From contig NZ_KB235914.1 of the NCBI RefSeq assembly GCF_000332175.1, positions 2,848,868 through 2,912,867 of the forward strand: a stretch of 64,000 nucleotides of DNA, written 5' to 3'. The DNA comes from Pseudanabaena sp. PCC 6802 (GTDB lineage Bacteria; Cyanobacteriota; Cyanobacteriia; Pseudanabaenales; Pseudanabaenaceae). A model generated the notes under the pieces. The model made no database searches. It was not told where the DNA came from and worked only from the letters and a program-made list of their open reading frames with translations. Both the position numbers and the translations under genes were made by a program. This document shows, piece after piece, positions 6,732 to 64,000 of this stretch (its first letter is position 1; every line of letters begins with the position of its first letter).

Positions 6732-9700
6732 CTAATCCCCCAGAGCTGACTTACTGCCGAACTGGACTCGAAAAGTTTTGATTTCGTAGGGCTGAAATTC
6801 ACAGGAGAACTGGTGAAGCGAGCGTGCAATTGTCTCGCCAAAATCCCTCTCCATCAAATCGCACTCTACCACTGTTTTTATCTCCGAACTAAAAGCAACC
6901 TCAGTTGTTACTCTTTCTCCATGCGCTTCATACAGTCGCACAATCCAGCCGGAGGTATCTTCAGCCAATTTGAACGCAGAGAGCACGATCGCTTTTGAAG
7001 ATATGGAGAGGAAGCTCCAACAATCGCGATCGTCATCTTGCCCTGTGGGTCTACTGGGGAAAATCTCCAACGGATTGTTGAGATTGTAGCCCTCGCGAAC
7101 GATTTGGGCATGTTGCCAGCTACCTTGATGTGGCAATAGCCTGTAGGTAAATTCGCTAACGCCGCGATCGGCATGGAGGGCTGGCCAGTTAGGGCTGCGC
7201 AGTAAAGTCAGGCGAAGCCGATCTGGTTTGGCATCATAGCCATATTTGCAATCATTCAGAACGCTCAACCCTATGCCGTCACTGCTGAGGTCAGCCCAAA
7301 ACTGAGCGGGAACCTCAAATTTAGCTCTGGCCTCCGGTGTCTCTGCCATCGTGCTACGGGCGATCGCTCCCATAGGAATTTCATAGGTGGCAAAGGGAGC
7401 GGAAAATGATAGGGGGAATGCCATTTTGACCAGTACGCGATCTTCTTGCCAATCCACTATATTTTTGACAGTTACGTAGGCACTATAGGCATCCAGGTAA
7501 ATATCCTGTTGGAAGCGAGATCGACCAAACCTTTTGACAATGCTGAGCGATACTCGAATGGGACCTTGTTCTTGGATTATGAGCGATTCCAGTTGAGCGT
7601 TTGGTAGTTGCTTGCTCTCATAGGCTGGATCGATATTCCAGGCATCCCAGTATTGACCGCGATCGCTGAAGAATTGTAATTCGCATGACTTGCCAAGCAA
7701 TGAATTGTTATAGCGCTTATCGAAAATTTGGTCTATATCACCTGTTTGGGAATTAATTGTAACTTTGAGATATTGATTCTCAAGATAAATTTCAGGGTTT
7801 AGTTCTGAGCTTGTGATGCTTACAGGGGGGATTGGCGCTACAAAGCGATCGCTTTCTGCTGGGAGAATTTGGTAATTGGCGAAGCCAAAGCTGGGAATGT
7901 CCTTAGCGATGATGAGTATACCTTTCTCAGTTTTTTGGATTGGTAAAAGCTCTGGCGACGGGTTAGCTAGATTAGCGACTGATGCGAGACCGAACTGTAA
8001 GTTTTTGGCTCTGTCGTCATCCTCATAATTAAGAGTCGCAGGATCGCTAGGGTTTTGTCCCCCCTTCCCCAAAGGAGAGGGACTAGGGGAGAGGGCTGCA
8101 ATTTCTATAACCTCCGTTCGCGACCAATTCAGGAAATTCCAAATTGCTATTGACAATGGCAATGATGAATCTTGTAGGGGCAAATCCTCTGTGTTTATCC
8201 CGAGGTTTGGAGCAGGCACAGGGGCACTGCCCCTACAGATATTTGGGTACATTTTTTCATGGGGATCGCCTAAGACTTGCGCGATTATCGATTGACAAAG
8301 ACGAGCGACCTCATCCCATACCAAATCTGCGTCGTGAAATACCTCAGGGATGGATGTGCCGGGGAGAATATCGTGAAACTGATTTAACATTAGACCCTGC
8401 CAAGCTTTGTTTAGTGCTGGTTGTGGGTACGCTGCTTGTTGCGCGATCGCGGCGATCGCACGTATCTTCTCAGTATTAGCAATCAGAATTTCTGCTCTGC
8501 GGTGCTTGCGCTTCTGATCGGCTTTAGTCGTGTAGGTGCCGCGATGGAATTCCAAATACAGTTCGTCTTGCCAGCAGGGAATACTGCTCTCATCCATTTC
8601 CTGTTTGAGCTTTAGAATGAAATCCTCCGCTGTCGATGACTCTAGAGTAAAGAACAAATCGGATTTACTCCATTCGCGCCCTAGATCCAGCATATCCGCT
8701 GTAGGGCCGCCGCCGCGATCGCCCACGCCATAGAGCCAGAGACATTCTGGGATACTATGTTTTTGTTCCTGTTGTGAAAGAAATTTGGCGATCGCTACTG
8801 GCTCGATACCCAAACCAATTTCGTTACTAAAGTATGTGAAGATTTTGCTACCATCCAAGCCCTGCCACCAGAATATTTGATGTGGGAATTTATTTGTATC
8901 GTTCCAGGTCAGCTTTTGGGTGATAAAAGCGACAAATCCACTTTTACTCAGGATCTGCGGTAACTGCCAGTTGAACCCAAAGGTATCGGGCAGCCAGGCA
9001 ATCCTACTATCCCTTCCAAATTTTTCACGGAAATATTGCTTGCCGTAGAGAATTTGTCGAATTAGGGATTCCCCGTTCGGCAAATTGCAATCCGGCTCCA
9101 CCCACATGCTACCGATTGGTTCCCATTTCCCTGCCCGTACTGATGTCTGAATCTGCGCGAAAAGTTCGGGATATTCCTCTTCCATCCACAGATAGGAAAG
9201 TGCCGTGCTTTGATTGAAAATTAACTCGGGGTAATCCTTCTGTAACTGCAATGCCGAACTGAACGTACGCTGCATGACATCCTTCGTCTCCGCGATCGCC
9301 CAGAGCCACGCCACGTCAATATGGGCATTTCCCAACAAATAAACCTTTCTGTGCTTGAGAAATTCACCAATCGGCAGCAGCGATCGCCGGATCTCTGCTA
9401 GTTCAGATAACCATTCGCTGTCAATACCTTGGGAATTAGCCTTCGCTAGCAACCTCTCAAGCTGGGATGCGCTTGCGTCCAGGTTGAAGTTCCGATCGAG
9501 CAATTGCGGTAAGTAGGCTTGAATTATACCCAGTTCTGTTGCTAATTTACCGGGATCGCAAGGCAGATGCGGATATTCAAATAGAATTTCCGACTTTTGC
9601 AAGGCACCGCGATCGTGTTTGGGCGCAATGAGGTTGAGGGTAAAGGTAAAGGTGCGCTCGGGTTCGATATTTTGGGCGAGGAGAAGACGACATTTCTGAT

Positions 9701-48441: not shown

Positions 48442-48513
48442 GGGTGACTGGCGCAACGGTAGCGCATCGGACTCTTAATCCGCTGGTTCGGGGTTCGAAT
48501 CCCCGGTCACCCA
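48442..48513 (+). tRNA. tRNA-Lys(CTT)
   Basis: A 72-nt cloverleaf: acceptor GGGTGAC/GTCACCC with discriminator A, D arm GCGC...GCGC, anticodon loop CTCTTAA with anticodon CTT, and T arm CGGGGTTCGAATCCCCG. CCA is not encoded. The recombinase gene begins 153 bp downstream, so its 3' half is the probable attachment site of the element that follows. Confidence 0.95.
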
Positions 48514-48666
48514 TGTTTTTGTTGCAATAAAATAGCCTAAATTTTAACTAAAACCCTACCCTTGCTTGGCTTTTGGACTTATGGCTATTTTGTCAATACC
48601 ACCTAATACTACCTAATACCACCTAAACTACACTAAAAAAGTAGGCATAATTTTAGGCTAGACAAA

Positions 48667-49785
48667 ATGGACGAGAATAGGACGCAGGGATTTGATGGAA
48701 GAATTGCTCAGGCTAATGGGCGGCTCCGAACTGGCAAGGTGGGGGCAGCGATCCAACGCATTGGCGATCGCTTAGTAATTCGTGCCATTTTCCCCCCTAA
48801 ACCCGATAGCGATCGCGAGAGACCCTATCAGCAACGCCTGTTCCTTGGCTATCATGCGAATCCGACTGGGATAAGCTTGGCTGAGGCAGAAGCCCGTAAG
48901 ATTGGTGCTTTGCTCGATTGTGGCGAATTTAAATGGGAACCGTATCTAAGAAAGAAAAGTGAAGGCGCGGGTACCGTGAGAGATCTGATCGCGAGATTTG
49001 AGGCAGAATACTTCTCAAAACGGGCGTGATCGCCTAAGACAGAAACCACCTGGAATAAGGAATACAGGCAGGTCTTCTCTCGGTTGCCACTTGACCAGGT
49101 GCTGACGGCTGAAATATTGAGAGAAGTTGTACTCGCAACTGAACCGGATACTCGCACTAGGCAACGCTTTTGTATGGTGACTAAGGCTTTGGCAACATTC
49201 GCGGGGATAGAATTTGACGCGCAATCCTATCGCGGGAAGTATTCGCCCAAGCATGTCACGCCGCGAGATTTGCCTGACGATCGTCCGATCGCAGAGTGGT
49301 ACTACAAAATTTCTAACCCAGCGTGGCAATGGATTTATGGGGCGATCGCTACCTATGGCTTGCGACCGCATGAGGCTTTTTACCTCGACCTGGCGGACTT
49401 CCCGATCGTGACGGTGACAGAAGGGAAGACTGGGCGACGGCGTGTATGGCCGTGCTATCCAGAGTGGGCAGAGCAATTCAATTTGCGCGATCGGAAGCTC
49501 CCAGCGGTGACGGGGCGAAATAATAGCGAGTTGGGGGAGAGGGCGGCTAAATACTTTAAGCGAGTGGGGCTACCGTTTGTGCTTTACGATCTGCGCCACT
49601 GCTGGGCGGTGAGAACCTTGGAATTTGGCTTGGATATTTCGCTAGCTTCTCAGCAAATGGGTCATGCCGTCCAGGTGCATACCGATCTCTACCATGCCTG
49701 GATTTCAGAGCGGCATCACCAGCGGGCGTATGAGGCGATTATGATGCGAAGCGATCGACCTAAAGCCCCCATAATTATTCCCTAG
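48667..49785 (+). pseudogene. Tyrosine recombinase (integrase) with an in-frame TGA
   Basis: One continuous frame of about 372 codons is broken only by TGA at 49027-49029: ...EAEYFSKRA, stop, SPKTETTWNKEYRQVFSRLP.... After it come the core-binding and catalytic regions, with GLRPHEAFYLDL, LYDLRHCWAVRTLEFGLDIS, QQMGHAVQVHTDLYHAWI giving Arg, the His-Arg block, His and Tyr. The stop lies in GTGATCGC, one C-to-T step from the HIP1 octamer, and would revert to CGA (Arg). Either the gene is dead, the stop is read through, or a shorter protein starts at the TTG at 49084. Confidence 0.85.
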
Positions 49786-53394: not shown

Positions 53395-56061
53395 ATGCCA
53401 GAAGGAATCAGAGAAGACCACTTTCAAGAGTGGACTAAAGGCAGTGGTGTAAGCGAGAGAATTACCAGTCTCAATGTCGAATCCCTCACCGACCCCCAGG
53501 AAATCGACAAACGACTTAACCGAAACAGCCGTCGGCGCACTAAACATAGCGATTGGGGCACAGGTGGATGGTATGTCAGTGGAGTAGATCCCAGTACCGG
53601 AGAACGGCACGGTATTGGCGCGCAATTCAAACCCGACCGACCGCGCTTAAAGGGCGACAAGCCCATTAAATACGAGAGCGTCAGCGATTCCGAATCCGTT
53701 CCCCTGTTTCTCGATACGGGCGATCGCTACTACTGGCCGAATATTCTCAAAGGCAACGATGCGATCGTCATCACCGAAGGAGCTAAAAAGGCTGGTGCGG
53801 GGCTTACCGCTGGTGTCCCCACCATCAGCGTGCCAGGTGTGAGCAACGGGCAGAAACAGGGGCGGCTCAAAGAGTACCTGCACGCGTTCTGCAAACTGGG
53901 GCGGCGCGTCTATCTCTGTTTCGATTCAGACATACTGGTCAAATTCCAGGTGCGTAGAGCGCTCGACACCCTAGGGCGGCTAATTGCCGAGTGCGGATCG
54001 ACGGTCTCTGTTATCAATCTGCCAGCCGAAACCAAGGGCATGGACGACTACATCGTCGCCAGGGGCGGCATCGCCTTTAAAGCCCTGCTATCAAAAGCTC
54101 AAACCTTTGAGGAATGGCGCAACGACCCCACCGAGATCCAAAGGCTCAATGCCAAAGAGGAAAAATGCTTTACCCAACTCGTATTTGAGGAGCTTTACAC
54201 CGCAACCCCCTGGGTGTGCATCGCCGAAACACTCCATCGCTGGACTGGCACGCACTACGAACCATCTCCCGATGCGATCGAGCGCCGCCGGATCTGGGAT
54301 TACTGCAATAAGCACGGCACGGTCACCGATGACGGCTACAGCGAGGTCAAAGTGTCTTACAAATATGCCAATCCCGCCATAGTCTCTCGCTGTCTGGAAT
54401 GGGCAAAGCAAGGCACGTCGATCGACCCCGAAAGTGTCAACCCCTCCGGCCTCAACCTTGCCAATGGCGTACTTAGCCTGACTTGGGAAGGCAGCAAACC
54501 CACCTGGCGGCTAGTCCCCCACACTCCCGATATCGTCTACACCTACTGCTCAAAGGTTGCGTACCAGCCGGACATCGATGGCGCGATCGCAGACCAATTA
54601 CTAATTGCCCTCGACCCTCCCCAGCGGGACATTTTCCTCAAGACTATGGCGGCGGCGTTTGACCTCACCACCGTGCGTCAATTCCTGCGCGATCGCCTGC
54701 GAGTTCTACTACTCAAGGGTGACGGCTCTAACGGCAAGGACACGCTGCGAGAGACGATCGGGGAAATATTCGCGCAGGGGCTAACCGGATGCACCTTCTC
54801 CGACTTCCAGCAGTACGACGAGGGGCGCAAGTTCCCGCTGGCAAAGCTGGCATACAGTCGCATCAACTGGGCATGTGAAAACCAGGACAATATCCGGCTC
54901 GACAAATTGCAAGTCCTTAAACAAGTCGCTACGGGCGACCCGATCGACATTGAACCAAAAAACAAAGAAGAGTACTCTATCAAACCCAAGGCAGTGCTTG
55001 CTTTCAATATCAACGAGACACCAGGCTTACTGGCCGCCCAGGAAGCAATCCGATCGCGCTATACGATCCTCCAGTTCGCGAAAACGTTTAAAGCCAACCC
55101 CCAGCACGAGGGCGAAATCCAGGCTGACCCGCGCTTCAAGCACAATCCCGAGTTCATCCAGTACCAGGTCGCACCGGCGCTGCTCAATAAACTCCTGGAA
55201 GCGCTTACCCGCCTCACCACCGAGGGCATCGACTACACCTGCACCGACGCGGCGATCGAGGAAGCCCGCAAATCTTCTAGCCACTTATTCCGGTGGGCGG
55301 ACGATATAGGTCTAACTGTCGGTAGTGGTGGGGAAGAACTCCTTGTAGGGGAATTGTATGAGAGCCTTAAGCAATGGTACCTAGACAATGAGTGGCTGAC
55401 CGTTGAAATTGACTCAAAGGGTAAAGAAAAGACGATATGGCTAGATGTAGGAAGTAAATCTGACCCAGTGGTCAAAGCTTCGCATCAAATGCGCGATCGG
55501 CTCTCTAAAATCTTTCCCACGGTCAAATTTGGCAAGCGCTCCAAAAAAGGTGTATCTCTTACTGGTCTTATTTTTTTTGATTCAGTAGTAAAAATAGGAT
55601 CACTAGGATCACCACCCCCCGAAAACGCAGAAGGGGAAATCGATTCCAGGATCGGTGTAGGATCACCGGAGGATCACCAGAGGATCACCGGAGGATCACC
55701 CGACTTAACAAAACTTCAAGAAGGTGATCCTATAGAGGCTGCTGGTGATCCTCCGGTGATCCTAGGGGTGATCCTACAAGATGCCCCAAAAAACGGACAC
55801 AGTAACGGTTACAAGGTAGGTGGTGATCCTGGTGATCCTAAAAACGCACTTACTGTAGAAAAATTTTCTGAGGGCGATCGCGTTGTAATTAAAAACTGCG
55901 CTCTTGCAGTCGAGCGACACCCAAAAATCAAAGACGATCTCAAGTGGGCAGTCTGGGGAATTACAGATCTTTTGCCAGATGGCGAAGCCTGTTGCAGGTC
56001 TGGCCCGTACCGATATGTGTTCCGTCTAGAGTGGCTAGCGAGGTGGTGGAAAGATGCCTAA
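53395..56061 (+). CDS. DUF3854-type primase / SF3 helicase replication protein
   Basis: An 888-residue replication protein. Residues 100-235 are a toprim-like DUF3854 domain (AIVITEGAKKAGAGLTAG, RVYLCFDSD, AETKGMDDYIVARGG). Residues 400-640 are a D5-like SF3 helicase: Walker A GDGSNGKDTLRETIGE at about 440, then CENQDNIRLDKLQVLKQVAT, GDPIDIEPKNKEEY and LAFNINETPGL. Residues 660-730 are a helical DNA-binding-like region. Residues 735-815 are low complexity and are encoded by the GGATCACC array. Such proteins replicate phage-like and plasmid-like elements from their own origin. Confidence 0.92.
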   Translation: MPEGIREDHFQEWTKGSGVSERITSLNVESLTDPQEIDKRLNRNSRRRTKHSDWGTGGWYVSGVDPSTGERHGIGAQFKPDRPRLKGDKPIKYESVSDSESVPLFLDTGDRYYWPNILKGNDAIVITEGAKKAGAGLTAGVPTISVPGVSNGQKQGRLKEYLHAFCKLGRRVYLCFDSDILVKFQVRRALDTLGRLIAECGSTVSVINLPAETKGMDDYIVARGGIAFKALLSKAQTFEEWRNDPTEIQRLNAKEEKCFTQLVFEELYTATPWVCIAETLHRWTGTHYEPSPDAIERRRIWDYCNKHGTVTDDGYSEVKVSYKYANPAIVSRCLEWAKQGTSIDPESVNPSGLNLANGVLSLTWEGSKPTWRLVPHTPDIVYTYCSKVAYQPDIDGAIADQLLIALDPPQRDIFLKTMAAAFDLTTVRQFLRDRLRVLLLKGDGSNGKDTLRETIGEIFAQGLTGCTFSDFQQYDEGRKFPLAKLAYSRINWACENQDNIRLDKLQVLKQVATGDPIDIEPKNKEEYSIKPKAVLAFNINETPGLLAAQEAIRSRYTILQFAKTFKANPQHEGEIQADPRFKHNPEFIQYQVAPALLNKLLEALTRLTTEGIDYTCTDAAIEEARKSSSHLFRWADDIGLTVGSGGEELLVGELYESLKQWYLDNEWLTVEIDSKGKEKTIWLDVGSKSDPVVKASHQMRDRLSKIFPTVKFGKRSKKGVSLTGLIFFDSVVKIGSLGSPPPENAEGEIDSRIGVGSPEDHQRITGGSPDLTKLQEGDPIEAAGDPPVILGVILQDAPKNGHSNGYKVGGDPGDPKNALTVEKFSEGDRVVIKNCALAVERHPKIKDDLKWAVWGITDLLPDGEACCRSGPYRYVFRLEWLARWWKDA
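55597..55838. repeat. Mirrored array of twelve GGATCACC octamers: candidate replication origin
   Basis: Six direct octamers start at 55597 (last base T), 55606, 55660, 55671, 55682 and 55693, and six inverted ones (GGTGATCC) at 55723, 55744, 55755, 55767, 55822 and 55831. Spacings are 9 bp in the outer pairs and 11-12 bp in the inner groups, about one helical turn. Both the outer pairs and the inner groups are centred at 55717. The octamers are read in different frames, so selection acts on the DNA rather than the protein. Confidence 0.85.
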
Positions 56062-56335: not shown

Positions 56336-56842
56336 TTAGCTTTCCTGATAGACAGAGAGGAAGACTCTACCTTTCTCGTACAAGGGCAGTACAGAGTTAG
56401 TTAGATCTGCGTTGTGCATCCTCACACATCCGTATGTGGGATAAAGCGTTTGGTACGGTTCCCACGCACCAGGCCATCCACACGCAGAACCGCCGCCATG
56501 CAGACAGATGCCAGCGCGATTGTTTCCGTCTTCATTCCCCTCTAAGTCACCCATGTCAAAAGTTATCCATCCATACGATTTTTTGACGTGAGCAGGTACA
56601 CTGTCTGCATTCTCCAAATCCCGATAAACATCGCCAAGCAGGTAAAGCCCTGGCGGAGTATCGGATTGTGCCCAGCGCCATTCGTTCTCTCCGTACTGCC
56701 CTCTAGCTAGACAAGGCAATTCCCAGAGAAGCTTGCCATCGTAGCTATACGCCTTTACTGTCTCTGAGACATCGTTGACAATTAGGTGGAAATCGTTGGC
56801 ACTAAATCCGAACTCTTGGGGTTTGCGTTTCGGGCCGATCAT
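56336..56842 (-). CDS. L,D-transpeptidase (YkuD-like)
   Basis: A 168-residue protein from the ATG at 56842; longer frames overlap the next gene. The YkuD pattern is visible: GICLHGGGSACGWPGAW supplies the histidine and PTYGCVRMHNADLTN the catalytic cysteine block. These enzymes cross-link or trim peptidoglycan via L,D-peptide bonds. No signal peptide is present, so it would need lysis, a holin or another route to reach the wall. It is the last gene of the leftward module, where phages often keep lysis genes. Confidence 0.8.
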   Translation of the reverse strand: MIGPKRKPQEFGFSANDFHLIVNDVSETVKAYSYDGKLLWELPCLARGQYGENEWRWAQSDTPPGLYLLGDVYRDLENADSVPAHVKKSYGWITFDMGDLEGNEDGNNRAGICLHGGGSACGWPGAWEPYQTLYPTYGCVRMHNADLTNSVLPLYEKGRVFLSVYQES

Positions 56843-56846
56843 AAGC

Positions 56847-57404
56847 TTACTTAGATAAAGGGGGTAGTTGTGGGGGAGTTTGCGGGGGCTTTTGTGTTGA
56901 CACAGAGGGGTTGTTAACTTGATAAACCTTGCGATTTTTCTCAATCTCAAGCTTCAACTCAGCTATTGAGGCTTTAATCTGGTCAGCCAGTTCAAAAAAT
57001 CGTTCCTGGTTTCTCTTGCTGTCCTGGAGCAGTTGCAAAATCAATCCTATCTGCTGATTTTGTAGCTGAAGGATAGACGCAACCTCTTCTTGAAACTGTT
57101 TCGATGACTGCAATTGATTTGCGAGAAGCGTTCTAGTAAATTCGTTTAGCGTTCCAAAAGTGTTCTCGCTCTGCTTTAAATCCACCTCTCTCTCTTTAGC
57201 ATCAGCATCAATCCTTGCTCTGATCTCAGCCCCCTTAGTTTGAGAGAAAAAATCGACAATTCGCGGCAAGATTTTAATAAGCGCCATGCCCAACAGCAGC
57301 CACAGTAGCCTATCTACGCCTAAACTGGTGGCAAGATCGAGGACTGGTTGAGGGCGTATTTGCGGGGGCTGTTCAGGCTGTACTTGCTGGGCAATTAATT
57401 TCAT
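56847..57404 (-). CDS. Single-span membrane coiled-coil protein
   Basis: A 185-residue protein. A short Pro/Gln-rich N terminus, one membrane helix (VDRLLWLLLGMALIKILPRI, about residues 30-50), a long charged coiled coil (residues 55-160) and a Pro-rich tail. The topology resembles holin/spanin or virion-anchor proteins. It ends four bases before the transpeptidase start and overlaps the preceding gene by one base. Confidence 0.7.
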   Translation of the reverse strand: MKLIAQQVQPEQPPQIRPQPVLDLATSLGVDRLLWLLLGMALIKILPRIVDFFSQTKGAEIRARIDADAKEREVDLKQSENTFGTLNEFTRTLLANQLQSSKQFQEEVASILQLQNQQIGLILQLLQDSKRNQERFFELADQIKASIAELKLEIEKNRKVYQVNNPSVSTQKPPQTPPQLPPLSK

Positions 57405-58036
57405 CAGCTAAACTCTGTTACCTGTGCGTTACCGTTATTGTTAGTCCATAGCCCCTTGATTACTCCAGTAAAGTTAACTGGAGATTCGTAATAGACGGAA
57501 GGATTTATTCTTGCGCTAAAAGCGTTAGCGGTAGGAGCGACACCAAAACCGACATACAACACGCCCGTACTGTTGTTATATATCGTGAAAGTTTTGCGGT
57601 TAGAGTTAGCTGTCAACAAATCTACCGCCGCTGCGCTGCTAGCGGCAACAGATGTTTGGGTTGCATTTCCGCTAGTTATCGCACTTGAGGGTTCTGAATA
57701 GAGAGGCATATTAAATCTCCAGATTTCTAAAGTGTAGTTCCCTAACCAATCGGCGGGAGTAAATTCAAGTAAGTATTCGCCGTTGATCGGTGGCAATCGG
57801 ATAACCTGACTAGATAGCTTCAAAGGGAAAGAGTCGAGAATTATCGGTAACTGGGGATTACCAATGATTCTGTTTAAAGTTCCCGCTACTTGCCAAGTAT
57901 CAGGCTTGGGCGGTCGCTTAACAGTCACCACAAGTTCTCTTTCTGTTAGGAGTCGGTTGACAACATGCTTACCGCTTTTACTGTTCAGGTTTTGCCCGTA
58001 GATAAGAATGCGTGAAAGTCCTGTTTTAGCTGGCAT
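57404..58036 (-). CDS. Putative virion surface or fibre-like protein
   Basis: A 210-residue protein. Residues 1-115 are beta-rich (LLTERELVVTVKRPPKPDTW, YLLEFTPADWLGNYTLEIWR). After a Ser/Ala linker, residues 140-210 form a compact beta domain: RKTFTIYNNSTGVLYVGFGV and VYYESPVNFTGVIKGLWTNN. I have seen this type of domain in phage structural proteins, and the plus-strand product at 59817-60623 carries a comparable ending. Function is inferred. Confidence 0.65.
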   Translation of the reverse strand: MPAKTGLSRILIYGQNLNSKSGKHVVNRLLTERELVVTVKRPPKPDTWQVAGTLNRIIGNPQLPIILDSFPLKLSSQVIRLPPINGEYLLEFTPADWLGNYTLEIWRFNMPLYSEPSSAITSGNATQTSVAASSAAAVDLLTANSNRKTFTIYNNSTGVLYVGFGVAPTANAFSARINPSVYYESPVNFTGVIKGLWTNNNGNAQVTEFS

Positions 58037-58275
58037 ATATATTCCTCAGCTTCCTCTAGAGAAATCCACTCATCATCTTCTTCATCCTCATCAGTATCCC
58101 AACCGCCATAACTATCGTAAGCATACTCTAGGAAGCTTTTAGCGTTAACCGCTTCCAACATTCCAGCCTCGTTAGCGATATAGTTTCGCTCATCAAGCGG
58201 AATATCAGAAGCGGGTAACTTGCTTTGTAGAATCGCGTTAAATCCTGGATCTCCAGGCAATAGCAATTTCTTCAT
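57985..58275 (-). CDS. Small acidic hypothetical protein
   Basis: A 96-residue protein with a basic start (KKLLLPGDPGFNAILQSKLP) and an acidic stretch (GGWDTDEDEEDDEWISLEEA). It overlaps the next gene by 52 bp and is separated from the previous one by four bases. Acidic proteins of this size can be assembly chaperones, but nothing proves that here. Confidence 0.6.
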   Translation of the reverse strand: MKKLLLPGDPGFNAILQSKLPASDIPLDERNYIANEAGMLEAVNAKSFLEYAYDSYGGWDTDEDEEDDEWISLEEAEEYICQLKQDFHAFLSTGKT

Positions 58276-58279
58276 AAGC

Positions 58280-58885
58280 TTAGAGAATCAAAGTTAAATC
58301 GCCTTGTTGGTAAGTTCCTGCACTAGTACTAAACCCAGTGGGAACCTTAGCGCTTGGATCGTAGAAGGTGCTAAATTTAGCGCTTTCTTCGCCCTTGGCA
58401 ACTGACCCCTTAACTCTTGGTGGACGTGGGAAGGACGCGCCGAAAACTAAATCAGTCTCAGCGCCTGTCACTTCCTTGATTCCCAAAGCCTTGGCTGAAC
58501 CAGAAATCACATTCCAGCGTTTGAGGGACATTGCCCATGCGTATTTAACACCGATCAATGTCACGTAAACCGCTTTTTGCCGCTGAGTTGTAGCCTTGCG
58601 GCCTTTAGACTTAGCTCTGCTGATATCCCAACCCGCTTTAGCGGCATCATCTTCTTTCGCGAAAGAAACATACGAGCTTTCAATGCCAGTGGTACGAGTG
58701 CGAGATGCTTTTCTGGGCTTAGGGTGATTTGCTTTGTAAATCAAGCCCTGAACCGCTGTATTAGCGTCTACAGCGGTATGTCCCAATGCGGTACTTACGC
58801 CGGAATCGGCAGTAGTTTTGAAGGCGTATTTTATGTCTGCGTATGGTGCCGCCATTGCCACCCATACTAATTTTGCTTTTGTCAT
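58280..58885 (-). CDS. Candidate major structural protein of the element
   Basis: A 201-residue, Ala/Lys-rich protein without signal or membrane segments: PYADIKYAFKTTADSGVSTA, KASRTRTTGIESSYVSFAKE, VTLIGVKYAWAMSLKRWNVI. I do not recognise the family. It is the second gene after the leftward promoter, where an abundant virion protein is expected, and it has the size and composition of a coat protein. This is inference from position. Confidence 0.55.
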   Translation of the reverse strand: MTKAKLVWVAMAAPYADIKYAFKTTADSGVSTALGHTAVDANTAVQGLIYKANHPKPRKASRTRTTGIESSYVSFAKEDDAAKAGWDISRAKSKGRKATTQRQKAVYVTLIGVKYAWAMSLKRWNVISGSAKALGIKEVTGAETDLVFGASFPRPPRVKGSVAKGEESAKFSTFYDPSAKVPTGFSTSAGTYQQGDLTLIL

Positions 58886-58930
58886 TTCAGTTACCTTAAA
58901 TTTGGATAATCGTTAACCTATCGTCAATCG

Positions 58931-59290
58931 CTAAGCGGTTACAGCAGTAGCACTTTGTCTATCTAAAGGCGAACGACTTTGGAAACTGTAGGTTTCAGTA
59001 ACGTAGAATTTTCCATCCGTTGCATCTAATTCGGGAACACCAGAGAAAGGCGCGGGATAGCTATTTAAATCACTAGCATTACCAGGATCTGCGTTATACG
59101 CGATTTGCGCTGTATTAGCAGCAGTTAATAGCACGGTGAAAAATTCAGCAACTTTCATATCTGCCGCTGCAATTGCTAATTCGCCCATGCATTTTTCAGC
59201 GTCAAAAACAATCGTATTGCCAGCAATAGTTACAGCAGCGGGGTCACCAAAACCTGCGCTTAATTGTTGAAAAGTTAAATCAGCAGCCAT
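58931..59290 (-). CDS. Candidate virion protein, first gene of the leftward module
   Basis: A 119-residue protein with low charge and many Ala/Thr: DLTFQQLSAGFGDPAAVTIA, IAAADMKVAEFFTVLLTAAN, LDATDGKFYVTETYSFQSRS. TAGGAGATATTTTCAC provides a good Shine-Dalgarno. Not recognised. Position and composition suit an abundant structural protein. Confidence 0.6.
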   Translation of the reverse strand: MAADLTFQQLSAGFGDPAAVTIAGNTIVFDAEKCMGELAIAAADMKVAEFFTVLLTAANTAQIAYNADPGNASDLNSYPAPFSGVPELDATDGKFYVTETYSFQSRSPLDRQSATAVTA

Positions 59291-59558
59291 GTGAAAATAT
59301 CTCCTACTAGGTTAAAAGTTACCAATAACACGTTTAACTCACGAATTTGTATCGCGTTTAAATTCATGCAATAAAAACGCAAGTGTCTGTATTTTAGCTG
59401 CTAAACAAATCGTTTTGTCAAGGGGTAAGTGTGGCTATAGAAAGCCTTAAGAGACAAGGCTTTAAGTTAATCGGTCTTATTACCAAAACCTAGGGTTTTG
59501 CAAAAACGCAAGACGCAATTTATAGTGGTAGAAAATTAATTAATACGCGCAATAAGCT
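59291..59558. promoter_or_regulatory. Divergent promoter region between the two late modules
   Basis: Rightward: TTGCAA (59498-59503), 17 bp, TATAGT (59521-59526), a near-consensus promoter. Leftward: TTGACA (59421-59416 on the minus strand) with TAAAAT 19 bp on. A perfect palindrome CAAAACCTAGGGTTTTG (59484-59500) overlaps the rightward -35, AAAGCCTT/AAGGCTTT form a hairpin at 59441-59463, and AAAAACGCAAG occurs twice (59373 and 59502). Confidence 0.6.
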
Positions 59559-59768
59559 ATGAAACTAATTTGTTACCCCTTACTTTGTACCGATTCCAGA
59601 AAAGCCATTTTAAGACAGTCTAAAAACGTCTTAAAGAGTCATCGATATTCACCTAAAGGTGATTTGCTCCAAAGACTAGCTAAAAAGCTTGGTTGGAATA
59701 TTGATAGGGTAGCTGAACAGCTTCACAAGGAAAGGGAATATTTGCTTAAACAAGAGTCCAGGAAATAG
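59559..59768 (+). CDS. Small basic hypothetical protein
   Basis: A 69-residue protein with a helical C terminus (DLLQRLAKKLGWNIDRVAEQ then LHKEREYLLKQES). First gene after the rightward late promoter. Not recognised; it could be a regulator of this module. Confidence 0.55.
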   Translation: MKLICYPLLCTDSRKAILRQSKNVLKSHRYSPKGDLLQRLAKKLGWNIDRVAEQLHKEREYLLKQESRK

Positions 59769-59816
59769 CTATTCTTCCGTTTAAACCATTAACTTAATTA
59801 ATTAACTTAATACCGC

Positions 59817-60623
59817 ATGAGAATACAACAAACGATTAATCGCAACGTTCAGATACTTCAACCAATGCCGATAAATAGTAGCGATATTGTTACTATTTAC
59901 CGTCCTGGTGTAGTATCCCCACAAGATAGGGTAGCTACGGCTAGGTTCTACGGATTCATTACTTCCCTGCGATTGCTGGTAGATATAAAGAGCTTACCAG
60001 AATCGCAAATTCCCGATTTGGATGTAGCGACATCCCGCGCAGATAGACTGATGAAACTTAGAGATGTCGAATGGCGTTCCGAAAGAAAGGAATTGCAACT
60101 TTTGCTCAAGACTAGCGCAACGGGATGGGTAAAGATTGCATCTGTCAGCTTGTTAAATCGAGTCCCCTTTTATCACATGGATATAATGCCATTTCTCACT
60201 AATGGCGTAGCCTTTGAGTTAGCCAATAACGCTGTGTTGGGGGCACGAATAATTAATGCGGGATATGGATTGCTCCAAAACGGTGATGAGGTTGTCTTAT
60301 ACGGTTCCGCTAAAGAAGAAATCACTTCTTTGCCAACCGATAGCCCAGAAATCAGTTATGCCACAAGTTACGATTTCGAGATACCCACTCATTTAAGCTT
60401 GATTCTCCCAGCTAATCCAAATCGACAACAAGTTACCCTGACAAATAAGAGTGACCTAGAAGATGTCTATATTAGTTACAGTGCAGATTTAGTGGTAGGT
60501 AAAGGCATCTGTTTAAAACGTGGTGGAGGTTCCTACGAAATCAATCTAAGTAACTTGTATCGCGGCAATATTTACGCAATTGCTGCAAATCTAGCACAAC
60601 TTAGCGGGATAGAGGCAGTGTAG
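59817..60623 (+). CDS. Putative virion-associated beta protein
   Basis: A 268-residue protein without membrane segments. The C-terminal 75 residues (RQQVTLTNKSDLEDVYISYS, GKGICLKRGGGSYEINLSNL, YRGNIYAIAANLAQ) resemble in pattern the end of the minus-strand protein at 57404-58036. The centre has a beta-rich character (GARIINAGYGLLQNGDEVVL). Not recognised; a structural role is inferred. Confidence 0.62.
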   Translation: MRIQQTINRNVQILQPMPINSSDIVTIYRPGVVSPQDRVATARFYGFITSLRLLVDIKSLPESQIPDLDVATSRADRLMKLRDVEWRSERKELQLLLKTSATGWVKIASVSLLNRVPFYHMDIMPFLTNGVAFELANNAVLGARIINAGYGLLQNGDEVVLYGSAKEEITSLPTDSPEISYATSYDFEIPTHLSLILPANPNRQQVTLTNKSDLEDVYISYSADLVVGKGICLKRGGGSYEINLSNLYRGNIYAIAANLAQLSGIEAV

Positions 60624-60628
60624 TCATT

Positions 60629-60799
60629 ATGCAAATTAGAGACCCTTGGATAGGTGAACCACCACCACCACAAAGAAAGCGAATTGTCTTTACCTTCACG
60701 GCATTGGGTAAAGAACAAGCCGAAATCCTGCTAACAAATAAAATGCGCTACCTTCCCGATCTAACATTGCCAATCCTTGAATTTACCAAGATTATTTGA
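60629..60799 (+). CDS. Small hypothetical protein (56 aa)
   Basis: Encodes QIRDPWIGEPPPPQRKRIVF then TFTALGKEQAEILLTNKMRY. It begins six bases after the previous gene and ends just before the next, so it is probably translated as part of the operon. Not recognised. Confidence 0.5.
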   Translation: MQIRDPWIGEPPPPQRKRIVFTFTALGKEQAEILLTNKMRYLPDLTLPILEFTKII

Positions 60800-60801
60800 T
60801 T

Positions 60802-62814
60802 ATGGGAATTTTTGACCCTGGCGAAGATTATACCGATCCAGAACTAACCGAATCTCGGTATGAAGATTACGGGGCACTTGGACAATATCGTACTCGCGTA
60901 TATGATGGCAACGGACAATTGCCGATTACGCCTTGGATTCCAGGGTTAGATAATCAACGCTATTTAATGCCCGATCCATTTGCGCCTAATCCCAATGATG
61001 ACGATGCAACAGCAGATGTTTATCGCACTAAATGTGAAACCTGTGTTGTGGTTCAGTGGAGGAATATAGGGCGATGGACGCGTAATCCTTTTGGAATCCT
61101 TGTATTAGTAACCAAAGCGATTCCGGTATATTCTTGTACCCGTAGACCGGAATGCAGGGATAGAGGCAGGGATAGGGATGACCCAAAATTACCACCGGAA
61201 CCGAAAATTCCTAAAGGATGGGGTTTGCGGGTTTGGTGGGGATGGTGGATACAGGTAATCGTATCTACCGAATATTGGGCAAACCCCCAAACTGGAGAAC
61301 GCGGCGAAATCAAGCGTGTTCGCCGACAATATACCTATGGGAGCGGGATAAACAAAATCATAGAGGTAGAGGGATCATCGAACGGGGCTGGCATTTTTAC
61401 GTTTCCCTTGGAAAATGTCAACGGACAGCAATTTAATGTTTTAGTAACCGAAATTGTGGCGGCAGGGGGTAAATCGGATTCGCCTTTTTTAAGTGGTATC
61501 GTAGGGTACAACGGTTACTCAGGTGGCTATTTTAACTACAAAAAACTGACTGACGTAAAGCTGTTGGCGGTGGAACGCTATATCCTCAATCCCTTAGTCC
61601 GGCAGCAATTCCCATCTTATTTCTACAATGGGTCAATTCCCAGTGATAGCAACGGATATGCGAATGAAGAATTTAATAATACCCACGAATTAAATGCGCG
61701 GATGGGCTACACCTTCTGGGACGAAGTTAAGCGGACATTTGCGCGATTGCGGCAACGCAAGTTTACCCGCCCTGTGCCCAATGCATTTCCCTACAGAGAA
61801 GAAGAATTTGATTTATATACCGATTGGTTTCGACCGAACGGCATTCCCTATTTATTCGGTCTTGGGAATTGGGCTGGACGCTCTATGTATTGGAGTGTCA
61901 TAAAGACTGAATTATTGCCACCGTCAGGAAGCCCAGTTAACCCTAAAGATAATGGACATAATAACCCTAATGGAGAGGACCCCATGAGTTGCTGTGAAGA
62001 ACAAAGCGATTTGTTGAGAGCAATCTATAAGCGATTAGGTTGCGATCAATATCCCATTGAGGTGCCAGAAACCTTGGTACCTAATGATGATACAGAGAAA
62101 GGCAAAACTCAGCAAATAGAAGATTTAACCAATTTGGTTTTTTGGGAAATTAAACAGTTAGATGCATTAACAGGGCAATTTCCAATAGAGATCGAAATAC
62201 CTGCCGCTCCAGAAGTAGGTGTTAAAGAGCAAAAACTGAAATTTCCGAATATTGCCGAAAGCTTGGCGGAAATAGTTGGCTTACTCGTGCCTAATTCCGT
62301 TGACAATAATATCGCTATCGACTTAATTAACCGATTGTTCACGGAAGTGATAGCGGCAAAAAATGCGGCAATTATTGGGCAAGATTTGGCATATGCCAAT
62401 AGCGAATATCTAGGCTACAAAATCAAGCAAATTACCCGTGATGTCCCTAGTTCAGTTAACCTAGAAAAGCTTGGCACGTATAAGGACTTTGCTAAAGAAG
62501 GCAATTACAAGCTGGTTTCTTGGGAAAATGTGGACAAAAATACCGCTCAATCATTTTTCTCGAAACTGATGTTCTCAGCGTCAATCATCAAAGAAGTATT
62601 TTTTGTCTCTGGACGCAAAGATCCAAAGGGTAGGCGCATACAGCAAACATTGAAAGACGTACAAGGTAATGCCAAGGAAACGGAGAACAATTGGGCACAG
62701 TATCTTGACGATCCATTAGACCAAGGCAAAAAGGATAAAGATAGACCAAAAATCATTGAAAAAAATGAGGGAGTTATAGCAGATAATCCTTTGGGTGGTG
62801 GTGCAGGGAGTTAA
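60802..62814 (+). CDS. Large unrecognised protein of the rightward late module
   Basis: A 670-residue protein. The N-terminal 70 residues are acidic and Pro/Asn-rich. A cysteine cluster follows (YRTKCETCVVVQW, IPVYSCTRRPECRDRG) around a hydrophobic stretch, then a tryptophan-rich segment (GWGLRVWWGWWIQVIVSTEY). Residues 180-400 are beta-like; MSCCEEQSDLLRAIYKRLGC near residue 395 adds cysteines; the C-terminal 250 residues are helical with a coiled-coil look. No known capsid, portal or terminase motif is visible. The ATG at 60802 is preferred to a TTG six bases upstream. Confidence 0.65.
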   Translation: MGIFDPGEDYTDPELTESRYEDYGALGQYRTRVYDGNGQLPITPWIPGLDNQRYLMPDPFAPNPNDDDATADVYRTKCETCVVVQWRNIGRWTRNPFGILVLVTKAIPVYSCTRRPECRDRGRDRDDPKLPPEPKIPKGWGLRVWWGWWIQVIVSTEYWANPQTGERGEIKRVRRQYTYGSGINKIIEVEGSSNGAGIFTFPLENVNGQQFNVLVTEIVAAGGKSDSPFLSGIVGYNGYSGGYFNYKKLTDVKLLAVERYILNPLVRQQFPSYFYNGSIPSDSNGYANEEFNNTHELNARMGYTFWDEVKRTFARLRQRKFTRPVPNAFPYREEEFDLYTDWFRPNGIPYLFGLGNWAGRSMYWSVIKTELLPPSGSPVNPKDNGHNNPNGEDPMSCCEEQSDLLRAIYKRLGCDQYPIEVPETLVPNDDTEKGKTQQIEDLTNLVFWEIKQLDALTGQFPIEIEIPAAPEVGVKEQKLKFPNIAESLAEIVGLLVPNSVDNNIAIDLINRLFTEVIAAKNAAIIGQDLAYANSEYLGYKIKQITRDVPSSVNLEKLGTYKDFAKEGNYKLVSWENVDKNTAQSFFSKLMFSASIIKEVFFVSGRKDPKGRRIQQTLKDVQGNAKETENNWAQYLDDPLDQGKKDKDRPKIIEKNEGVIADNPLGGGAGS

Positions 62815-62818
62815 ATCA

Positions 62819-64000
62819 ATGGGATTAAAAATAGTATTATCAGCGCTAGCAAGCCGAAAAAGACGGCAGGAAATCACCAAGGGGAAGCCCAGACAGATAA
62901 ATCCCGCTGGAACGATTGTTCGCAAAGAAAATGGAGGGATGCTTGATGTTTTGCTTGGATGGGGTAAGCGAATAGTTGGATTTGTGGTAAGCCTGCTACC
63001 CGTTGTTGGCGGATGGGCAACAACGGTATGGTCATGGCTGATTGGCGCGGCAACAGCTATCGTTAATTTTGACTGGAATGCTAGTGACAAGCAGATAGAA
63101 GAATGGATAAAGGGTAATAATATTGCTTTAGCCTCAACTTGGGGTAATGCTGTAGGCGAAATTGCTGGTAGCGTTGCCGCGTTAGCAATTGGAGCAGGAG
63201 TATCGTTACTTGTTCCCGTGATCGGCGGTAAAGCGCTTGCAGCTATCGTTAAATCTCGGCTTATCGCAGAACGTGCTGATGATGTAATCGGAGCATTACG
63301 CTCTGCGCTTCAAGCTACCGTTGGAACGATGGCTAAAAATTCAGGTCTTAGCTTGTACGTGAATATTCGCAAAGCCATACGCTTAATTCCTGCGTTCAAA
63401 GGATGGGGTAGAGAGGGAGGCAAGCCATTTATCATCGCCGAAAAGGTTGAGGAGGCAATCCAAGCTATTCCTAACGAGTATTTACGGGCTTTTACGGATA
63501 GCGCGGTAGACCAGTTTTTTGAATCGTTTGTAGAGTCTGGATATATCGTAGCGAATACGATTGATGAGCAATGGCAATTACATAAAGCGAGTGCCACTAC
63601 GATTCTTGGCAAAGAGACTACTTTGGAAATTTACCCAGATCCAGAAATTAAAGAGGAGAAGATTGTATTAAAAGGGAACCAACGATTGCTTAAACCACAA
63701 TTGAGTACGGTTTTGGCTAACGCACAGATTATCAAAAATAAGGATGTAGGGCAGATTGCGGGTATGCCTGCGTCAGAATTTGTAAGTGCAGTACCAACAA
63801 TGCGGTCGCTTACCATCATTCTGTATAGCAAAGAAAAACCCCCTTTCTTCGATAGGAAAACCAAGAAAAGAGCTAAGCCGGTACAGGTATCGATTCCCGA
63901 TTACAAAAAAGGGTTGACTTGGCAACAAATCAAAGACGCTTGCAAAAACCACACTTGGGGTAAATTTCATGGTATCGCAAAGCTCGATAACGGACGCACC
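62819..64000 (+). CDS. Large unrecognised protein, runs off the window
   Basis: At least 394 residues from the ATG at 62819, four bases after the previous stop, still open at 64000. A basic N terminus is followed by two hydrophobic hairpins (IVGFVVSLLPVVGGWATTVW, EIAGSVAALAIGAGVSLLVP), then a charged alpha/beta region (LIPAFKGWGREGGKPFIIAE, VDQFFESFVESGYIVANTID). The pair of Gly-rich membrane segments suggests a membrane-inserting role, for example in DNA entry or assembly. Not recognised. Confidence 0.7.
   Translation, partial: MGLKIVLSALASRKRRQEITKGKPRQINPAGTIVRKENGGMLDVLLGWGKRIVGFVVSLLPVVGGWATTVWSWLIGAATAIVNFDWNASDKQIEEWIKGNNIALASTWGNAVGEIAGSVAALAIGAGVSLLVPVIGGKALAAIVKSRLIAERADDVIGALRSALQATVGTMAKNSGLSLYVNIRKAIRLIPAFKGWGREGGKPFIIAEKVEEAIQAIPNEYLRAFTDSAVDQFFESFVESGYIVANTIDEQWQLHKASATTILGKETTLEIYPDPEIKEEKIVLKGNQRLLKPQLSTVLANAQIIKNKDVGQIAGMPASEFVSAVPTMRSLTIILYSKEKPPFFDRKTKKRAKPVQVSIPDYKKGLTWQQIKDACKNHTWGKFHGIAKLDNGRT

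Follow-up and report, generated by a model that had tools for sequence, protein, structure and literature searches.

We identified a mirrored array of twelve octamers inside a helicase gene of Pseudanabaena sp. PCC 6802, and we argue that it is very probably the replication origin of the 17-kb element that carries the gene. The octamers would act as iterons, bound by the C-terminal winged helix of the helicase that the same gene encodes. The argument draws on sequence comparison and structure models.

The array and the helicase gene around it

All coordinates (Table 1) refer to the window, that is, the whole stretch of 64,000 nucleotides that was analyzed, unless stated otherwise. The helicase gene sits in an integrative element of about 17.1 kb, for which a tRNA-Lys gene is the integration target. 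The 23-bp repeat that contains the 3' end of this tRNA recurs once in the genome (C5:2914492-2914514), 1.6 kb beyond the window and 17.1 kb from the first copy. The tyrosine integrase of the element is interrupted, and the element may have lost excision or may depend on help for it; alternatively, the stop may be a sequencing error or may be recoded. The genes searched to the right of the helicase (56336-63612) gave no Pfam or PHROGs match, save a weak YkuD-like one at 56336-56950.

Judged by its domains, the product of 53395-56061 is of the primase/SF3-helicase type of initiator. Both D5_N and DUF5906 exceed the Pfam cut-offs, DUF3854 was matched at E 2e-28, and the closest solved relative by sequence is the SaPI5 primase-helicase (PDB 7ola; profile match, E 4e-20, and Foldseek fold match), with the hexameric C962R also among the PDB relatives. 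AlphaFold2 modeled the helicase and the winged helix with confidence (pLDDT mostly >85 for the latter) and gave residues 729-846 no confident structure; the C-terminal segment after this linker is poorly modeled because the alignments were built from window and viral contig sequences alone. By fold, the winged-helix model comes closest to the RFX DNA-binding domain, at weak Foldseek E-values (0.07-0.19), and a Foldseek search with the isolated winged helix returned nothing below E 0.001. We treat the RFX match as a lead that may reflect a shared fold at most.

Near the 3' end of the gene, 242 bp (55597-55838) contain twelve octamers, six per strand. Eleven of them are exact copies of GGATCACC, the remaining one is GGATCACT (55597-55604), and AGGATCAC(C) is common to all twelve. 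The initial annotation, made from the letters of the window, had reported twelve copies of a single word; the twelve sites and their split between the strands stand, although one copy has a mismatch. The mirrored array itself is real. An exact search of the window returned eleven GGATCACC, all within 55606-55838, as against 1.26 expected by chance, and none of 100 shuffles reached eleven. When codons were reshuffled over the final 666 nt, 2000 trials never produced more than three copies of any octamer, compared with the twelve observed. No other octamer cluster of more than four copies was found within the 64 kb; HIP1-like GCGATCGC-type octamers, a common cyanobacterial repeat unrelated to the array, form clusters of four at 8443, 32152, 40044, and 52731. 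The 5.6-Mb genome holds 74 copies of GGATCACC, 11 in the array and 63 elsewhere. Because these 63 are scattered, the octamer is not a genome-wide repeat; such a repeat was what the annotation had named as fatal to its own reading.

The left six octamers point right and the right six point left. On the forward strand, a pair spaced by 9 bp is followed by a quartet with steps of 11, 11, and 11 bp; on the reverse strand, an inner group with steps of 21, 11, and 12 bp is followed by a second 9-bp pair. These positions bear out the proposed array centers at about 55717, as well as the 11-bp quartet on the left, but not its claimed counterpart on the right, where the inner group is uneven. Likewise, the mirror that had been called strict is near-perfect: five of the six left/right pairs fall within 1 bp of one center, while the innermost pair misses it by 10 bp (p = 0.002 when positions are randomised and strand order is kept, a test used in place of strand permutation, which is weak for 12 sites). 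As the annotation had noted, the octamers are read in different codon frames, three on the forward strand and two on the reverse. The array should cost the protein little, since it encodes a predicted disordered linker between the winged helix and the C-terminal segment.

Table 1. Features of the element and of the octamer array, in window coordinates
Feature	Position	Strand	Basis
tRNA-Lys (CTT), integration target	48442..48513	+	
attL, 23-bp direct repeat, contains tRNA 3' end	48501..48523	+	
Tyrosine integrase, one in-frame stop; ORFs 48667-49029 and 49084-49785	48667..49785	+	
Initiator helicase gene (type assigned from domains), 888 aa; DUF3854 (113-224), D5_N (263-431), DUF5906/SF3 (440-543)	53395..56061	+	Pfam, PHROGs
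Predicted winged-helix DNA-binding domain, about residues 630-728	55282..55578	+	AlphaFold2 models
Predicted recognition helix, residues 696-706	55480..55512	+	AlphaFold2; covaries with octamer
Predicted wing hairpin, residues 709-728; counterparts of 718-719 separate three octamer classes	55519..55578	+	AlphaFold2, covariation
Segment just left of array, 75% A+T, candidate unwinding element	55560..55599	.	composition
Predicted disordered linker, residues 729-846, contains array-encoded 735-815	55579..55932	+	pLDDT <50
Octamer 1, GGATCACT, one mismatch, outer left pair	55597..55604	+	
Octamer 2, GGATCACC, outer left pair, 9 bp from octamer 1	55606..55613	+	
Octamer 3, left inner quartet	55660..55667	+	
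Octamer 4, left inner quartet	55671..55678	+	
Octamer 5, left inner quartet	55682..55689	+	
Octamer 6, left inner quartet	55693..55700	+	
Center gap, 22 bp, A/T 15/22	55701..55722	.	sequence
Octamer 7, right inner group	55723..55730	-	
Octamer 8, right inner group	55744..55751	-	
Octamer 9, right inner group	55755..55762	-	
Octamer 10, right inner group	55767..55774	-	
Octamer 11, outer right pair	55822..55829	-	
Octamer 12, outer right pair	55831..55838	-	

Arrays in homologous elements

Protein searches turned up the helicase on cyanobacterial chromosomes and plasmids and on viral contigs; the viral-contig homologues were found with an alignment query, a single-protein scan of genome contigs and of viral contigs having given no matches. 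The 160 loci sampled were reduced to 76 non-redundant homologues, the DNA after the winged-helix region was searched in each, and an array was called where one octamer was present in at least five copies. As background, the adjacent helicase DNA holds two to four copies of one octamer, and shuffles yield at most four. Arrays were called in 59 of the 76 homologues, and 58 remained once L096, an in-frame 18-bp protein repeat, had been set aside; in the other 17, the 560 bp that follow the winged helix showed no clear array. Relative to the helicase, arrays start at a nearly constant place, most of them 40-160 bp past the winged helix, and more than 20 different octamers occur among the 58, including TGAACCAA, CCGCACCA, CCGCCCCA, CCGACCCA, GTGAGTCA, and GTTAACCC, and further GTGAAGCA, CGTAACCC, GCACCCCC, GGGTCACC, GGACGCAA, and CGAAGGCA. 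The annotation had anticipated arrays at the same place in homologues, with another octamer and the same mirrored spacing, and the spacing of pair plus group indeed recurs among the 58. Its opposite outcome, homologues that generally go without an array, was not seen, despite the 17 that do. What has to be given up is the idea that an array inside the gene is special to this one, for in this cyanobacterial helicase family that position is normal. Since the array keeps its position beside the winged helix in 58 of the 76 homologues, these comparisons support reading it as an origin.

In most of the cyanobacterial elements, including the one in the window, the reading frame runs through the array, which is thus coding; the array is non-coding and lies just past the stop codon in about 20 representatives from phage contigs and in a few further ones. 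This coding state requires at least three changes on the helicase-core tree, and we counted changes rather than rows because the group labels of the tree cluster by kinship. Arrays within the open reading frame use both strands in 32 of 33 cases, and at least two codon frames on one strand in 28 of 33. In five groups, which include coding and non-coding arrays, octamers were compared with the intervening DNA, and in each group the octamers were the better conserved (0.97 v 0.72, 0.99 v 0.89, 0.93 v 0.79, 0.97 v 0.75, and 1.00 v 0.74). Together, the mixed frames and strands, the greater conservation of octamers than of spacers, and the occurrence of arrays in both coding and non-coding form argue for selection at the level of the DNA. 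Further, copies on the same strand show a peak of phase coherence at 10.5-10.75 bp (0.47; jitter control ≤0.09), a spacing period that turns same-strand octamers toward one side of the helix.

The helicase family extends to large phages, as illustrated by a phage contig (L117:4008-9867) on which helicase and array are followed by a DNA polymerase III beta clamp and a large terminase. On several complete plasmids, no other obvious replication initiator is annotated, a context that favors replication from the array. Two loci suggest that arrays expand through local duplication: in L070, what looks like a second copy of the array lies in the same orientation (z+44 to z+399), and L044 has extra copies on one side in 21-bp steps (z+377 to z+461). 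Octamer arrays also lie near three loci (L018, L020, and L021, with CTGTTACA, GGAGTTAC, and CTGGTGCA) that match only the DUF3854 end of the protein and belong to the homologues matching DUF3854 only (L018-L034).

Winged helix, octamer, and the role of the array

After correction for distance in the helicase core, octamer similarity across the 58 arrays tracks residues 678-727 and no other part of the protein (partial r 0.21-0.26, against ≤0.13 in other windows of the protein; permutation p 0.002). Among closely related Nostoc arrays, the wing residues RN, KQ, and KD pair with CCGCACCA, CCGCCCCA, and CCGACCCA, respectively, and this column is the only one of 513 to separate all three octamer classes, in a comparison for which kinship is a confounder. 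L010 and L047 differ by 40% in the helicase core, yet both have CCGCACCA and RN; the core of L008 is only 21% different, but it has CCGCCCCA and KQ.

A single genome (G327) offers a natural exchange of both parts. It holds two copies of one element (L067 and L068) that are 99.9% identical over 3949 bp; the identity spans the whole helicase and the recognition helix, ends at the first wing codons, and returns 295-388 bp further on. Between these points, wing, linker, and array all differ, and the octamer is GGGTCACC in one copy and AGNNTTCC in the other. In the AGNNTTCC array, the 6+6 mirror is exact, a pair and quartet facing a quartet and pair, and the layout of the window is thereby repeated with an unrelated word: positions 77, 86, 165, 176, 187, and 197 face 220, 230, 241, 252, 331, and 340, and each left/right pair sums to 417 (p = 0.0005; the position-randomised test gave this value in L067 and L068 alike). 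Five GGGTCACC copies that persist downstream of the AGNNTTCC array are left over from the older array, and the two sequences indicate that wing and array were replaced together, as one block. The covariation with residues 678-727, the wing residues, and this joint replacement point to the encoded helicase as the reader of the octamers.

In the mechanism we propose, one winged helix probably reads each octamer, with the wing and the recognition helix making most of the contacts, and the helicase or its winged-helix fragment would be expected to prefer AGGATCACC DNA over scrambled DNA. Octamers facing the same way lie on one side of the DNA, and the six-facing-six layout would probably assemble two oppositely oriented helicase rings, which would then melt AT-rich DNA and depart both ways. 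We infer the two opposed rings from the mirror layout and from the AT-rich center: across the family, AT content is 62% in the center gap, 55% in the other spacers, and 52% in the flanks. GC skew gave the origin reading no support: in five complete circular plasmids, it showed no consistent switch at the array. A half-module, made up of a 9-bp pair and a group with steps of 11-12, 11-12, and 21 bp, recurs with unrelated octamers; its pair is turned outward in the window and inward in Nostoc plasmids.

Alternatively, the array could be an origin whose inverted layout works without two head-to-head rings, as a reservoir, in handcuffing copy-number control, or in the loading of one ring. This we consider unlikely, though well within reason. 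It would accommodate the copy number per half, which is often six but not always (L044, L046, and L093 have extras beyond six), and also the nearest relatives of the window (the TGAACCAA group), whose arrays are less symmetrical and contain few left-facing copies. Against it stand the AT-rich center and the fact that, in many octamer families unrelated to one another, the right half mirrors the left with the same spacings, as two opposed assemblies would lead one to expect. Six copies per half as a strict rule was rejected, as counts vary; this variation and the lower symmetry of the TGAACCAA group weaken the double-hexamer step more than the origin step.

That the array might instead be an operator or a centromere, serving regulation or partition and bound by the helicase or by another protein of the element, appears improbable to us. 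Iteron arrays can have partition or incompatibility roles, and as such sites elsewhere they lend this explanation a precedent. The array studied here, however, stays with the helicase gene across plasmids, integrative elements, and phages, its octamer covaries with the helicase's own winged helix, and its place is the 3' end of the gene, a long way from the promoter, while the plasmid ParM genes form a separate, divergently oriented cluster. We give hardly any credence to repeats that merely encode a low-complexity linker, or that arose by neutral tandem expansion, with no function in the DNA: the encoded segment is predicted to be disordered and L096 does have an in-frame 18-bp repeat, but this explanation is already contradicted by the use of both strands and several codon frames (in the window as in the family), by octamers that outconserve their spacers and are phased near 10.5 bp, and by arrays of the same type that are non-coding in phage contigs. 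Just as implausible is a site at which a satellite-like element is packaged or recombined, since, although a tRNA-integrated element could be a phage satellite, plasmids and large phages keep the same arrangement, and a packaging site has no need to follow the wing of an initiator.

If the array is an origin read by its own helicase, the exchange in G327 and the covariation signal suggest a further step, on which we are evenly divided: wing hairpin and origin array may together form a portable cassette, a few hundred bp long, that sets specificity, with the mirrored 6+6 sites as the template on which two opposed hexamers form. Since about 20-150 bp separate the wing codons from the start of the origin, one recombination event could swap reader and word, and such a swap would make a new compatibility group at once. 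The paired swap thereby suggests how replicons change compatibility in one step, and it may explain why the origin is placed in or right behind the gene. More broadly, our results offer a map, derived from sequence, of initiator, binding word, and candidate origin in a large family that spans cyanobacterial plasmids, integrative elements, and phages, for whose origins our literature search found no published description. The many natural pairs of word and wing make both the recognition code and the loading of two SF3 rings on 6+6 sites directly testable, and the system could also yield compatible cyanobacterial vectors.

Comparison with known systems

The C-terminal domain of SaPI Rep binds iterons directly downstream of its gene, apparently as two hexamers, and Cch2 of SCCmec shows iteron binding like that of SaPI Rep, directly 3' of its own gene (PMC7581432). 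With SaPI Rep (7ola/7om0) and Cch2, the system described here shares a related D5/SF3 helicase, a C-terminal DNA-binding domain (here predicted), and short iterons 3' of the helicase domain. It differs from them in that the reading frame runs through the iterons, which are therefore coding, in the mirrored octamers with their pair and quartet spacing, and in DUF3854 as the primase-like part; its iteron binding is putative.

The alpha protein of phage P4 is said, in the title of Ziegelin et al. 1993 as listed among the references of PMC8628076, to combine primase, helicase, and origin recognition in one polypeptide, a combination that our protein would share, the last function being putative here. 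The C-terminal domain of the P4 protein binds the origin, and we know of no report that the P4 origin and crr repeats lie inside coding sequence. SV40 large T antigen and papillomavirus E1 are SF3 initiators that load as double hexamers at arrays of short inverted sites. Unlike the helicase studied here, they have an N-terminal origin-binding domain and few sites; a comparison with these two proteins is also drawn in PMC7581432.

In phage lambda, the origin lies inside the initiator gene O, whose product consists of two domains and a flexible linker (PMC6022878). Both systems have iterons in the gene of their own initiator (by our reading), where they encode the linker and sit beside an AT-rich segment. 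Lambda O, in contrast, is unrelated and not a helicase (the Pfam and PHROGs matches of our protein are limited to DUF3854/D5/primase families, with none to lambda O), and its four 18-bp iterons are each an inverted repeat, with no 6+6 mirrored octamers.

Among cyanobacterial plasmid Reps, CyRepA1 and CyRepA2 likewise have an N-terminal DUF3854, and their C-terminal helicase is DEXDc (PMC10079941), whereas in our protein D5_N and DUF5906 take its place and no DEXDc domain is among the Pfam matches. Iterons go unmentioned in the CyRepA paper, and CyRepA2 requires its ORF and the upstream region (PMC10079941). The latter counts against placing the origin in the array, a conflict tempered by the CyRepA2 helicase being DEXDc and not SF3.

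The wing of RFX1 reads the major groove (PMC4333399), a mode that fits the covariation of wing and octamer and belongs to the best fold match of our winged-helix model, although RFX1 is a eukaryotic transcription factor and the Foldseek match is weak. A self-loading initiator helicase with an adjacent iteron origin is thus already known from other systems; what appears to be new is the mirrored, in-gene, word-swapping design and, as proposed here, the cassette of wing plus array.
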